A DNA stretch of 64,000 nucleotides from Acidobacteriota bacterium (GTDB taxonomy: Bacteria > Acidobacteriota > Blastocatellia > UBA7656): positions 1-64,000 of the forward strand of contig JBFMDH010000026.1 in NCBI GenBank assembly GCA_040754075.1, read 5' to 3'. The notes beneath the pieces are model-generated. The model saw only the letters and a program-made list of their open reading frames with translations, did no database searches and had not been told where the DNA came from. Below are positions 8,124-28,914 of this stretch, piece by piece. The translations under genes and the position numbers were made by a program. Position 1 is the first letter of the stretch. Each line of letters opens with the position of its first letter.

Positions 8124-8582
8124 TCAATAGTCGCTATAAGCCTTGCCGTCTGAACTTTCGCCGCTTGCCGAACTGAAAACATCAACGACGCCGGTGCCGC
8201 CGGTTCGCGAAATGGTGTCTTCGTCGGTTTCAACTTTCCAATCGGCTTCGCCGGTTATCGGGTCAATCGGAACTTCGCGAAGATAACCGGCGCTGACCAA
8301 ATCTTCGAGCGATTGCGGCAAGGCTTCTTTGTCGGCAGCATACTGGTCTATGGCTTTGCGCATATCGTGGAGGTCTTGTTTAAGGACGGTTTCGCGGGCG
8401 TGTATCTGCAACTTCTGATAGTTGACCACACCGATTGCCGCGAGGATAACGATAATCGTCATCACAATGACCAATTCGAGCATGGTAAAACCGGATGCGC
8501 CGGTAGTCGGTCGCCGGTCGCCGGTCGCCAGTAGTTGCTTTTGTGGACTTACTAAATTTTTAATCTTTTCGTAAAACTTCAT
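8124..8582 (-). CDS. Type IV prepilin / GspG-like pseudopilin with repeat-bearing leader
   Basis: A 152-residue prepilin. The prepilin-peptidase site is ASG|FTMLELV, with E at mature position 5, followed by the hydrophobic helix VIVMTIIVILAAIGVV. The C-terminal part resembles GspG: LPQSLEDLVSAGYL, PIDPITGEADW and a disordered acidic end. The leader of about 31 residues is unusually long. Its last codons are written in a run of five 7-nt units (8499-8533), so this part of the leader is repeat sequence rather than family sequence. The gene lies 135 bp downstream of the other prepilin gene. Confidence 0.85.
   Translation of the reverse strand: MKFYEKIKNLVSPQKQLLATGDRRPTTGASGFTMLELVIVMTIIVILAAIGVVNYQKLQIHARETVLKQDLHDMRKAIDQYAADKEALPQSLEDLVSAGYLREVPIDPITGEADWKVETDEDTISRTGGTGVVDVFSSASGESSDGKAYSDY
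8499..8533. repeat. Heptamer array inside the prepilin leader codons
   Basis: Five consecutive 7-nt units of consensus GCCGGTC (plus strand) lie wholly inside the coding sequence of the prepilin at 8124-8582 and encode its leader residues LLATGDRRPTTG on the minus strand. Because 35 nt is not a multiple of three, the whole insertion cannot have been a clean set of units without neighbouring adjustment. Confidence 0.85.
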
Positions 8583-8717: not shown

Positions 8718-9299
8718 TTACCAGTCTTTATACTTCGTGCCGTTTAATGCTGTGTCATCACTTGTCGTATAAACATCGAAAACATCTTCGCCGCCCCAAG
8801 AGGTCGAATCGGGTTCATCTTTGTAAGATTTCATGCCCCATTCGGCTTTGCCGGTCATCGGGTCAATCGGCAAACGACGCAAGAAGCGTATGCGATTGCC
8901 GGTTGTGCCAACCGTATTTGCCGGGATGAAGCCTTCGACGAGAATTTCCAGATTTTTCGGATAATAGCTATCGGTCTTCCACTCAATCGGAATGGCATTC
9001 CGGTTAAGTTCGGCAAAACGTTTGTAGGCATCAATCGCCTGACGCAATTGTCGCAGATTCAACCGCAATTCACTTTCACGTTCACGTTTGACGGAATTGC
9101 GAACCAGCGGAATCGTGACGCTCGTCAAAATCGAAAGAATCGTGATGGTGATGATGAGTTCAAGTAGGGTGAAGCCCTTTGATTGCGGATTGCGGATTGC
9201 GGATTGTTGCAATTGCGGATTGCGGATTGCAGATTGTGGATTGCTGGAAAAATTTTTCACAATCAAATTCAAAAAACTATTTGTTGCTTTCGTCATCAT
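8718..9299 (-). CDS. Type IV prepilin / pseudopilin with long repeat-derived leader
   Basis: A 193-residue prepilin. The cleavage site is SKG|FTLLELI with E at mature position 5, then the helix ITITILSILTSVTIPLV. The mature part has GspG-like features: a helix LRQLRQAIDAYKRF, the block LPIDPMTGKAEWG and a terminal TSWGGEDVFDVYT. The leader is about 42 residues, far beyond the usual 6-25. Roughly half of it (SNPQSAIRNPQ and QQSAIRNPQS) is the translation of a tandem heptamer array, in which 21 nt give a 7-residue period. The first two codons are both ATG; 9299 and 9296 are equally possible starts. Confidence 0.85.
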   Translation of the reverse strand: MMTKATNSFLNLIVKNFSSNPQSAIRNPQLQQSAIRNPQSKGFTLLELIITITILSILTSVTIPLVRNSVKRERESELRLNLRQLRQAIDAYKRFAELNRNAIPIEWKTDSYYPKNLEILVEGFIPANTVGTTGNRIRFLRRLPIDPMTGKAEWGMKSYKDEPDSTSWGGEDVFDVYTTSDDTALNGTKYKDW

Positions 9300-9361
9300 A
9301 ACTTCAAATTCACTTTATCAAATTCAAAATCAACAATCCGCAATCCGCAATTCGCAATTTG
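9181..9361. repeat. Complementary heptamer arrays flanking a prepilin start
   Basis: Arm one (9181-9245) holds nine units close to GATTGCG, one of them lengthened by two bases, and lies in the leader codons of the prepilin gene. Arm two (9334-9361) holds four units close to CAATCCG, the reverse complement, placed 1 nt after the secretin stop codon. In the minus-strand transcript the arms can pair and would enclose the prepilin ribosome binding site and start codon in the loop. Confidence 0.9.
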
Positions 9362-9362
9362 T

Positions 9363-11963
9363 TTAGCGTACTTCAACCTGGGTTGATTGGAACTTCAACG
9401 ATGCCACCTGTCCGCTGCCTGTGCGAATGAAGGTTTGCGCTTCATTCAACTGTAAGGGGGATTGTCCCTGTCCTTTGACATTAAAAATCAACAGCAACAG
9501 CATGCCGCGCGCCGGTACGCCTGCGGTTGCGCCCTGCCGACTCATCTGCACATTCAACACCCCGTTGTCAGCGGTGAATTGAATATCAGGTGTGCCGCTT
9601 CCCGAACGCAACAACCCGCCATCGCGGACGCTTTTTACTTCCAAAATATTGGGGTCGAAATTCAATGACAGATTCGCCGACGAAATTGTTGAATTGCCGC
9701 TCAGGTTGATTGCCACATAGAGGTCTTGCCCACGGGTGGCAAGGGTTCCCGCGCTTCGCACCGTAACCGTAATGGGACTCTGATCGCTTGAACCTGCCGC
9801 TTGTCCGGCTTGCGGCGTATCCGCATCGTCATCATCATCGTCGTCATCATTGAGATTGCCGCCTTTATCATTGGCTGGCGGTACTTTGTCGAGCGGTTTC
9901 GCCTGCACATTGGGTTTCAGCGCCGGCGGTTGATTAGGTGAAACATTATTCACCGGGCTAACCACGACGCCGGGTTGATTCAGGTTGCCTTGTTGCGATG
10001 CCGGAGTCGTATTGGTGATGGGCTGTGACGGTTGCATTTGCGGAGTTGTCGGACTGCCCGCAACCTGTGATTGTTGCGCGTCAATCATATCCGCCAGATC
10101 GATGATTTGTTGAATGGATAATTGCGCGCTCGGGTCTTGCGCGTAACCGGAATTGATTGCAAAGTGGTCGTCTTCTTTAATATCGGCGCGGCGCAACACG
10201 TGCGGGGTCACGGTAATGACCACATCGTTTTGCGAATTCTTGGTATCGGGCGTTGAGAAGAATCGTCCGAGTATCGGAATCAATCCGATAACCGGTATGC
10301 CTTTGACCGTCTTGCTCTCTTCGTTTTGACTGACCCCGGCAATCAACGTCGGTTGCCCGTCCTTCACCCGCGCAAAGGATGACAACTGGCGCTGGCTGAA
10401 AATTGGCGTCAACGTGCTGGTGCTGGAATCCACCGAAGACGATTCAATCTTCATCTGCATCTGCACTTCGTCCTCGAAGACCTGCGGCTTCATATCAATG
10501 TTGAGACCGACGTTCTCGTATTGAATTTGCGGGATGCCGACGCCGAAAGCATTGATGAAACTGCTGTCGAGATTGTTTACGTTGGTGCCGTTTCTTCCGG
10601 TATTGGGCTGAGTGTAAGACGGCAGCGAGGCGGTCTGAATCGGAATTCTTCGACCAATTTTGATGCTTTGTTGTTCGCCGTCGAGAATGTGAACCTGAGT
10701 TGACGCCAAGAGTTTCGCTTTACCGCGACTCTGGAAGAAACTGATTTGGCTGGGCGCAAGTCCTAACGCAAAACCGAGAACATTGCTGTTTAAGAGGATA
10801 TGGGTATTCGGTCTAAAAGGTGTATCGCCATTTTGTCCAAATCCGCCGAAGAAAGGAATCTGATTGCCGTTTTTATCTGCATTGCCAAATTGGTTACCAA
10901 ACGCCGTCAGGTCATTGCGCGAAACTTCGTAAATGCTCACATCAATCAACACTTCGGCTTTGGCTTTATCGAGCGAAGAAATCATGCGTTCGATCATTTC
11001 AAGGTTTGCCGGGGTATCGCGAACCACCAGAGCATTGAGTTGTTTGATCGGGGTTGCAGATTTGGTTTGCAGGGCGCTTGACAGGGCGTTTTTCACCTGA
11101 TCAACGTCTGCATATTTGATGTAAAACGTGCGCACCGCATAAGGCTCGTATTTCATTCTCGATTGCAAACCATCCATCGCAACCACGATGGTGCGGGTGT
11201 CCTGTTGCGAGTACATCAGATTGTTGGTCTTGAGAATCATTTCCAACGCTTTCGGATAAGTCACATTGCGAAGTTCAAGCGATTGGATGCGTTGATTGCG
11301 ATATTGCGCGGCAACCTGTTGATCGAAAATAACGTTCAGGTTCATCGACTGGGCGATTTGTTCGATGGTTGATAAAAGCCCGGCATCACGCAAAATCACA
11401 TTGGTCGGTTGAAATTTCCGGCTGCCGGTGGTTGGCACATTGACCGCTCTGGTGACCGTATTTTTGCCTGATGGTAAAACAACTTTCGAGGTATAGGATG
11501 CTTTGGTGTTGGGATTGTCATCATCCTGAGGTTTATATTGCGGTCCGGCTTTGTCATTTGTTGTTGGCAAATCGTTGGTCGGTAGCCCTTGCGCTTCAAG
11601 CATCCGGCGGGCTTTGATCAAAGCGAGTTCGTTGCCCGGGTCGTAGGCATAAGCCTGACGGTATGCCTGATAAGCCGCGTTAAAGTCCTTCTGGTCGGCA
11701 AGCTTATCGCCGCGTTCAACCAACTGAAACGCCGCATTCACCAGCGCCCGGCTGTAATAGGCGACGTATTCATAACTATCGGGTTTTTCAGAAGCGGCCA
11801 GAGCATACTCTTGAGCGGCTTTGTCCCATTGCCGCGCGGCTTCGGCTTTCTGTCCTTCTTTGAAATGTTTTTTGTGATCGGCAAACACCGCAAAGGGAAC
11901 GCCAAGCGTAAAGACGAGCAATAGAACCCAAGCTCTTTGCATTTTTATGGAGCGCGTAAGCAT
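9363..11963 (-). CDS. Secretin (GspD/PilQ type) with C-terminal cohesin-like domain
   Basis: An outer-membrane secretin of 866 residues forming the exit pore of a type II secretion or type IV pilus machine. In order: signal peptide (1-28), TPR-like repeats (about 30-125), an N0/STN-type domain (about 183-260), an N1 ring domain (about 270-335), the secretin domain (about 340-590, with VPVIG-like GIPVIGLIPILGRFF near 555-569), a Pro/Gln-rich linker with eight aspartates in a row (706-713) and a cohesin-like beta domain (about 730-866: SANLSLNFDPNILEV). The start at 11963 has TGAGGT upstream; codon 8 is a second ATG. The cohesin tail is unusual for a pore protein. Confidence 0.9.
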   Translation of the reverse strand: MLTRSIKMQRAWVLLLVFTLGVPFAVFADHKKHFKEGQKAEAARQWDKAAQEYALAASEKPDSYEYVAYYSRALVNAAFQLVERGDKLADQKDFNAAYQAYRQAYAYDPGNELALIKARRMLEAQGLPTNDLPTTNDKAGPQYKPQDDDNPNTKASYTSKVVLPSGKNTVTRAVNVPTTGSRKFQPTNVILRDAGLLSTIEQIAQSMNLNVIFDQQVAAQYRNQRIQSLELRNVTYPKALEMILKTNNLMYSQQDTRTIVVAMDGLQSRMKYEPYAVRTFYIKYADVDQVKNALSSALQTKSATPIKQLNALVVRDTPANLEMIERMISSLDKAKAEVLIDVSIYEVSRNDLTAFGNQFGNADKNGNQIPFFGGFGQNGDTPFRPNTHILLNSNVLGFALGLAPSQISFFQSRGKAKLLASTQVHILDGEQQSIKIGRRIPIQTASLPSYTQPNTGRNGTNVNNLDSSFINAFGVGIPQIQYENVGLNIDMKPQVFEDEVQMQMKIESSSVDSSTSTLTPIFSQRQLSSFARVKDGQPTLIAGVSQNEESKTVKGIPVIGLIPILGRFFSTPDTKNSQNDVVITVTPHVLRRADIKEDDHFAINSGYAQDPSAQLSIQQIIDLADMIDAQQSQVAGSPTTPQMQPSQPITNTTPASQQGNLNQPGVVVSPVNNVSPNQPPALKPNVQAKPLDKVPPANDKGGNLNDDDDDDDDADTPQAGQAAGSSDQSPITVTVRSAGTLATRGQDLYVAINLSGNSTISSANLSLNFDPNILEVKSVRDGGLLRSGSGTPDIQFTADNGVLNVQMSRQGATAGVPARGMLLLLIFNVKGQGQSPLQLNEAQTFIRTGSGQVASLKFQSTQVEVR

Positions 11964-28785: not shown

Positions 28786-28791
28786 AAGCAA

Positions 28792-28914
28792 GGATTCAGG
28801 ATTCAGGGGAGAAGAAACGATGAAGGCTGAAGTATGAAGGATGAACAGAAAGCGTTTTGTAGTTGTTCATCGTTCATCGTTCCTACTTCATACTTTCCTT
28901 TCCCTGAATCCTGA
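28792..28914. repeat. Long inverted repeat made of heptamers
   Basis: The left arm has two GGATTCA units (28792-28805) and then units of the type GATGAAG (28819-28846). The right arm has GTTCATC units (28865-28881), then CTTCATACTT and CCCTGAATCCT (28902-28912). AGGATTCAGGG and CCCTGAATCCT match exactly, and the inner parts match with gaps. The right arm ends at the stop codon of the gene at 28915. Confidence 0.85.

Follow-up and report, generated by a model that had tools for sequence, protein, structure and literature searches.

The window, by which we mean the whole 64,000-nucleotide stretch of contig JBFMDH010000026.1 (an Acidobacteriota bacterium of the Blastocatellia) that was analysed here, carries on its minus strand a secretin gene followed by a type IV prepilin gene, and the two probably form an operon. 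The prepilin has a class III leader, with a G|FTxxE motif followed by a hydrophobic stretch. The C-terminal Cohesin match of the secretin is to Pfam PF00963 (E 2.6e-08). Arrays of 7-nt repeats face one another around the prepilin start codon, and further heptamer arrays lie elsewhere in the window:

8718–9299, minus strand: type IV prepilin open reading frame (Pfam N_methyl, E 1.2e-07), with the G codon of the cleavage site at 9174–9176
9181–9206, minus strand: heptamer run a, GCAATCC on the coding strand, read as approximately QSAIRNPQS directly ahead of KG|FTLLEL
9210–9212, minus strand: in-frame TTG that separates runs a and b and would give a 12-residue leader if used
9212–9243, minus strand: heptamer run b, of the same GCAATCC family as run a and likewise encoded in the leader
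9245–9333, minus strand: loop of 89 nt, with ATGs at 9297–9299 and 9294–9296
9334–9359, minus strand: partner arm, AATTGCG/GGATTGC on the coding strand, 3.6 units, about 3–4 nt past the secretin stop (9363–9365)
9363–11963, minus strand: secretin (Pfam Secretin and Secretin_N, with a C-terminal Cohesin match)
8501–8529, minus strand: second heptamer array, ACCGGCG/ACCGACT, in the leader of the next prepilin (8124–8582), ending just ahead of SGFTMLEL
1225–1371, no strand assigned: inverted pair, AGGCAGT type then ACTGCCT, with a loop of 92 nt, separating two co-directional genes and placed 2 nt past the stop of one and 9 nt ahead of the called start of the other

The leader array (9181–9244) consists of about nine heptamers, full or partial, in two runs, and takes up 64 of the 126 nt that encode the leader, whose 42 residues include the cleavage-site G. 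The prepilin open frame offers no ATG start other than the two adjacent ones, both of which lie in the loop. Translation probably begins at 9297–9299, and the leader is presumably then removed. A sequence-only reading of the window had described facing arrays that bracket the start codon, a loop of roughly 90 nt and a leader about half encoded by repeats, all of which we find, together with a gap of 1 nt to the secretin stop, which is in fact about 3–4 nt. That reading also placed the ribosome binding site in the loop, and inspection of the sequence upstream of the prepilin ATG revealed no clear Shine-Dalgarno sequence. The 182-nt stretch containing both arms has a predicted folding energy of −63.5 kcal/mol (z −8.2 against 60 mononucleotide shuffles), and the window gave no match to known RNA families at the gathering score. 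When the prepilin loop was compared with 772 kb of loci from the same genome (E 1e-4), the only match was a 30-nt stretch near an array in another locus (L030). Elsewhere in the window, at 28786–28914, lies a composite junction hairpin in which an inner GATGAAC-type pair sits inside an outer AGGATTC-type pair.

A dispersed family of heptamer arrays with fixed polarity and position

The facing arrays at the prepilin are one copy of a genome-wide set and not a device specific to the prepilin. The genome contains 84 exact copies of the dimer CAATCCGCAATCCG and none of the reversed pattern; the dimer is present in 26 of the 58 genomes of our search of relatives, the genome under study counted. We analysed an array-selected sample, comprising 46 stretches around dimer matches, and an unselected sample of 40 stretches of 20 kb each that were picked regardless of content (800 kb). 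At one threshold, the unselected sample contained 48 arrays of period 7 and between 1 and 5 arrays for each of the periods 5, 6 and 8–13, and with the period-7 threshold unchanged a control of 150 kb from Escherichia coli contained none. First-order Markov shuffles of 208 kb likewise yielded no array of the GGATTGC family. A chance origin of the arrays was excluded by the shuffles, the comparison of periods and the E. coli control. After a low-complexity filter, 47 arrays with 24 distinct units remained in the unselected 800 kb; arrays have a median length of 31 bp in the one sample as in the other. Three consecutive G (or C) are found in 0 of 47 units in the unselected sample and 3 of 117 in the selected one, and GGATTGC itself has two G.

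Neighbouring arrays are arranged with a fixed polarity. Among arrays 8–400 nt apart in the array-selected loci, a G-rich array is followed by a C-rich one in 44 of 49 cases (one is reversed, three are C-rich twice and one is G-rich twice), and in the unselected sample in 9 of 11 (two G-rich twice, none reversed). Across the class Blastocatellia, a pattern with loops of 10–40 nt was matched G-first in 6 of 147 genomes and C-first in none of the 147; the genome under study is not among the six, its loops being longer or its arms varied. Complementarity between arms averages 0.79 within pairs versus 0.57 across unrelated pairs, and is 0.71 or less in 9 of the 18 pairs that are not purely GGATTGC. 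The loops of inverted pairs span 8 to 890 nt. A shared interior was considered and set aside, since an all-against-all comparison of loops of at least 30 nt gave one loop-to-loop match, and no sequence core common to all copies was found. A palindrome of the GAGGCTAAAGCCTGCC type is seen between or beside GGATTGC heptamers at five places (L006 7952–8049, L020 8014, L023 5669–5716, L025 8043 and L039 7971–8029).

Polarity extends to the neighbouring genes, whose boundaries here are the calls of a simple purpose-made gene caller. In the unselected 800 kb, 29 arrays lie within 30 nt of a gene, and 27 of these have their G-rich strand directed away from the gene closest to them; of the remaining arrays, 11 lie farther off and 7 lie within genes. 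Within 60 nt of a gene, the same orientation holds for all 34 GGATTGC arrays and, for other units, for 33 arrays against 5, with 4 ties. The outer edges of 37 pairs lie −2 to +4 nt from the stop codon in 26 of 35 cases on the stop side, and 5–17 nt ahead of the called start in 21 of 39 on the start side.

Taking both samples, there are 53 G-then-C pairs, with 45 intergenic, 6 inside a single gene and 2 unplaceable. Once the pair is removed, the gap measures 40 nt or less for 31 of the 45 intergenic pairs (the gaps of two pairs in L014 being overstated, as the gene caller missed S14 there), whereas among 992 other gaps the share is 18% (p 9e-14). Co-directional genes flank every one of the 31 short-gap pairs; background gaps of such size are co-directional in 161 cases and convergent in 17. 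Uniform insertion into intergenic DNA is therefore rejected, because the inserts prefer gaps that are short without them. For gaps of 60–400 nt in the array-selected loci, arrays occur in 58 of 270 gaps between co-directional genes, in 2 of 36 between divergent genes and in none of the 28 between convergent genes. In the unselected sample the corresponding excess (20 of 250 co-directional versus 3 of 81 other gaps) is not significant (p 0.22), and 1 of 38 convergent gaps holds an array.

Repeats within proteins and prepilin leaders

Arrays recur in other leaders and proteins. Among 38 arrays within called genes, 8 begin no more than 20 residues from the N-terminus and 1 ends at the C-terminus. 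In 6 of the 53 pairs of this genome the called start lies in the loop and an arm is read as the N-terminus of the protein, the genes concerned being the prepilin and those in L011, L012, L015, L044 and L211. An 85-bp block comprising the start codon, MSDN and an arm is found, with 83 of 85 positions identical, ahead of a dihydroorotate dehydrogenase gene and a HAD hydrolase gene; the two genes (L011 7029–8125 and L012 2013–2933) are unrelated and about 10 kb apart. Relative to the best solved homolog, QueA (L202) has about 25 extra residues at its array and PrmC (L013) about 17. An insert in an AMP-ligase (L038) was set aside as proof of capture, as it is not clear against the best solved homolog. 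The repeated heptamer GGATTGC is free of stop codons in all six reading frames. The sequence-only reading had held that a repeat was captured into coding sequence without breaking the frame; that it is read through as leader agrees with what we see, but keeping the frame is nothing special, given a stop-free heptamer and a similar layout in 6 of 53 pairs.

The arrangement at the prepilin junction is not conserved among orthologs. We assembled 110 loci (30 loci for 56 matching genomes plus the best 80 of 544), from which 7 duplicate contigs were dropped to leave 103 prepilin orthologs. Cleavage sites were assigned by alignment position, motif search alone having placed 57 of 110; the motif pattern fits 82 of the 103, and the other 21 were kept, 20 of them beginning with G and one (L078) being offset by one residue. 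In 7 of 103 orthologs, the window included, the open frame carries a period-7 array ahead of the cleavage site, and this detector found no leader array in the other 96 of those sampled. The heptamers of the seven are CAATCCG (the window and L144), AATCCAA (L053), CAATTCG (L054), GGGCCTC (L111), ACGTGCG (L122) and a GAACG type (L136). In three of the seven (L111, L122 and L136) the G-rich strand is the coding strand, contrary to the polarity rule, and in L122 and L136 the open frame has no ATG. The shortest leader in orthologs with an ATG has quartiles of 9, 14 and 20 residues, and thus long leaders occur.

Comparison of leaders in relatives, which the sequence-only reading had put forward as a check and which here covered genomes of other genera, showed that the layout with the ATG in the loop is not kept. 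In L053 (genome G004) and L054 (G006), the only ATGs of the frame precede both arms, which puts the start outside the loop; the detector missed the 5′ arm of L053, which is visible to the eye and in the predicted fold. For the sister genus (G001, L050), decayed arrays can be recognised by eye at both places, and the stretch folds no better than shuffled sequence (z −0.6). The start-region hairpin is accordingly not conserved in relatives.

Hairpins at ribosomal operon junctions

Junctions within ribosomal operons can be compared across genomes. In the genome under study, pairs were detected at L23–L2 and S17–L14 (both GGATTGC) and at L5–S14 and S14–S8 (other heptamers), and by eye further pairs are seen at L2–S19 and S3–L16 and a single array at L6–L18. 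The L14–L24 junction measures 73–280 nt in six of seven family genomes and 3 nt in the seventh, and 0–43 nt in 22 other genomes, 15 of which have fewer than 6 nt. Arrays were detected in four of the six filled junctions. Four of the six fold clearly better than shuffled sequence (z −3.6 to −15.6), and those of the genome under study (z −0.6) and of L163 (z −1.3) do not. A hairpin together with its loop can thus be added to a tight junction. The longest of these, the 280-nt junction in L165 (G005), consists mostly of 7-nt repeats in both arms and has the lowest fold energy (−133.9 kcal/mol).

For the edges of junctions in the spc part of the operon, the predicted pairing within a genome has a median of −26.8 kcal/mol (n=32) in the seven family genomes, as against −15.9 (n=146) when edges from different genomes are combined at the same junction (p 4e-8). 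In the 22 other genomes the values are −19.0 (n=48) within and −15.5 (n=434) swapped (p 9e-4). L24–L5 is the exception in the family, with −18.6 within and −17.6 swapped. By eye, heptamers at matching junctions often differ between genera, and G000 and G001 have heptamers in common at S17–L14 and S14–S8. Two histories would explain this: independent insertion of hairpins that differ in heptamer, or a change of heptamer with pairing kept.

Other motifs are seen at these loci. At the rplX–rplE (L24–L5) junction a motif resembling GCTGAAGGC...GCATCAGC is visible by eye in six of the seven family genomes (L160, L161 and L163–L166). The S8–L6 junction of L163 and L164 holds a long, near-perfect palindrome of the GGGCGTCC..GGACGCCC type that is not heptameric, and a second hairpin family may thus occupy the same junction sites. 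Searches of seven ribosomal loci against Rfam gave 20 matches with E up to 0.5, all under the gathering score and mostly to microRNA hairpins.

Origin of the prepilin leader array and relation to known repeats

We consider it probable that an insert at the junction extends over the 5′ end of the prepilin gene and that a leader which is cleaved and variable tolerates it. Both facing arrays would then be the arms of one heptamer-armed inverted-repeat insert from a large dispersed set, whose members mostly separate a stop codon from the start region of the next gene in the same direction, and the copy at the secretin–prepilin junction would overlay the 5′ end of the prepilin gene. Because the insert would cover this end, translation would start in the loop and read through the downstream arm, which the prepilin may tolerate because prepilin peptidase removes the leader, leader length varies among orthologs and the heptamer is free of stop codons. 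The effect of the insert on pilin synthesis would likely be small. The leader arrays of L111, L122 and L136, which breach the polarity rule, speak against this interpretation, as does the failure to find a transposase linked to the arrays at the five Y1_Tnp loci of the genome. In addition, the better pairing within genomes at ribosomal junctions suggests that some hairpins may be under selection, something that passive insertion does not need. We also offer, tentatively and with the expectation that it may well be wrong, a wider interpretation: operon junctions of the family might carry a hairpin that is free in sequence, its heptamer exchanged between genera with the arms complementary, and the arms with their edges might act as copyable cassettes that hand genes a new start codon and an N-terminal tag, as for the prepilin, the dihydroorotate dehydrogenase and the HAD hydrolase.

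Several other explanations bear on the same observations. Junction hairpins may have been selected as intercistronic mRNA elements (acting in segment stability, processing or insulation) in which the heptamer is free, the prepilin copy being one of them; this idea is compatible with an insert origin. The advantage of within-genome edge pairing over swaps, in the family and in the other genomes alike, argues for it, as does the preference of arrays for co-directional gaps in the array-selected loci. Independent insertion of different hairpins predicts an identical pattern, however, the co-directional excess does not reach significance in the unselected sample, half of the pairs that are not purely GGATTGC are of low complementarity, and some junctions that one genome has filled are empty in another or fold badly there; we regard such selection as a real but somewhat doubtful possibility. 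A narrower proposal, that of the sequence-only reading, is that the arms would pair in the mRNA, hold the start region in the loop and thereby tune prepilin translation. It draws on the strong predicted fold, on the ATG within the loop and on a weak GAAG upstream of the ATG that is paired in an inner stem of that fold. Tuning at the prepilin is possible but unsupported, and we judge it distinctly unlikely in view of the genome-wide family, the scarcity of leader arrays among orthologs, the arms downstream of the ATG in L053 and L054 and the poor fold in the sister genus. Moreover, the other genes with a start in the loop are functionally unrelated where inspected (dihydroorotate dehydrogenase, HAD hydrolase, Asp/Glu racemase and ABC transporter).

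The true start of the prepilin could instead be the in-frame TTG (9212) or lie elsewhere past the first run, leaving most of the array in the 5′ untranslated region. The resulting leader would be near the ortholog median for ATG starts (14–16 residues), but no Shine-Dalgarno sequence precedes the TTG, ATG starts in the open frame are limited to the adjacent pair, and the only ATGs of L053 and L054 lie upstream of both arms, so that this start seems unlikely. REPIN/RAYT doublets are, like the present pairs, inverted and dispersed, and mobilisation of REPIN-like elements by a Y1 (RAYT-type) transposase would fit inverted doublets of fixed polarity and the five Y1_Tnp matches in the genome. Unlike in that system, we found no linked transposase, none of the five Y1_Tnp loci being bracketed by a heptamer pair within 1.5 kb on each side (L231 and L233 have weak arrays 1.0–1.4 kb off, and L232 has a nearby inverted repeat that is not heptameric). 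The elements also lack a shared interior, with one loop-to-loop match and widely varying loop sizes, and their arms are of many unrelated heptamers, all of which makes this origin very improbable. Least credible, to the point of being nearly dismissed, is a G-quadruplex function of the kind considered for G-rich heptamers in Xanthomonas and Nostoc: position and strand rule relative to genes match in the two cases, but runs of three G or C are almost absent from our units and the architecture persists without G-tracts.

Rickettsia palindromic elements resemble the present arrays as palindromic inserts captured in frame in proteins; they form sequence families and are not built from heptamer arms. 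We found no account of heptamer arrays in Acidobacteriota or in prepilin leaders among the matches listed in our search of the open-licence literature.

Heptamers are known to be over-represented in bacteria, with no consensus on function or mechanism (PMC4692102). Rehm et al. 2015 described heptameric repeats GGGAATC in Xanthomonas and GGGGA(C/T)T in Nostoc that are mostly intergenic, the majority with four units, and that form convergent inverted pairs (70 cases in Xcc and 75 in Xac); near open reading frames, the G-rich strand is the coding strand downstream and the non-coding strand upstream (PMC4692102). The present arrays are alike in their tandem 7-nt units, convergent inverted pairs and strand rule; strand rule, unit number and inverted pairs are already known from Xanthomonas and Nostoc (PMC4692102). 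The differences are these: one G-tract motif is treated per genus, whereas 24 units mostly without G-tracts occur here in 800 kb; convergent gaps hold 16% of the repeats there, in contrast to arrays in 0 of 28 and 1 of 38 such gaps here; and capture in prepilin leaders and enzymes is a feature of the present genome set (PMC4692102). In the P6b stem of the Nostoc trnL intron, complementary heptamers of two repeat classes form the stem, and one class has repeatedly replaced the other with the stem kept; that is a single structural site in an intron, whereas the present arrays lie at gene junctions (PMC4476775). The TAACTGA repeats of Beggiatoaceae adjoin start codons and in some cases lie in open reading frames, mostly near protein ends (MacGregor 2015; PMC4679880). 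They are direct and almost never inverted, and their forward copies stop all three frames, unlike the inverted arms described here (PMC4679880).

Because the same junctions are available in genera that differ in heptamer, one can test whether it is the hairpin or the sequence that is preserved, or neither of them, and the prepilin provides a case of how repeat DNA could serve to rebuild a start codon and a leader. As far as our literature searches go, what is new relative to these known systems is the variety of heptamers mostly without G-tracts, their placement at tight co-directional junctions, pairing despite a change of heptamer, and repeated capture in prepilin leaders and enzymes.
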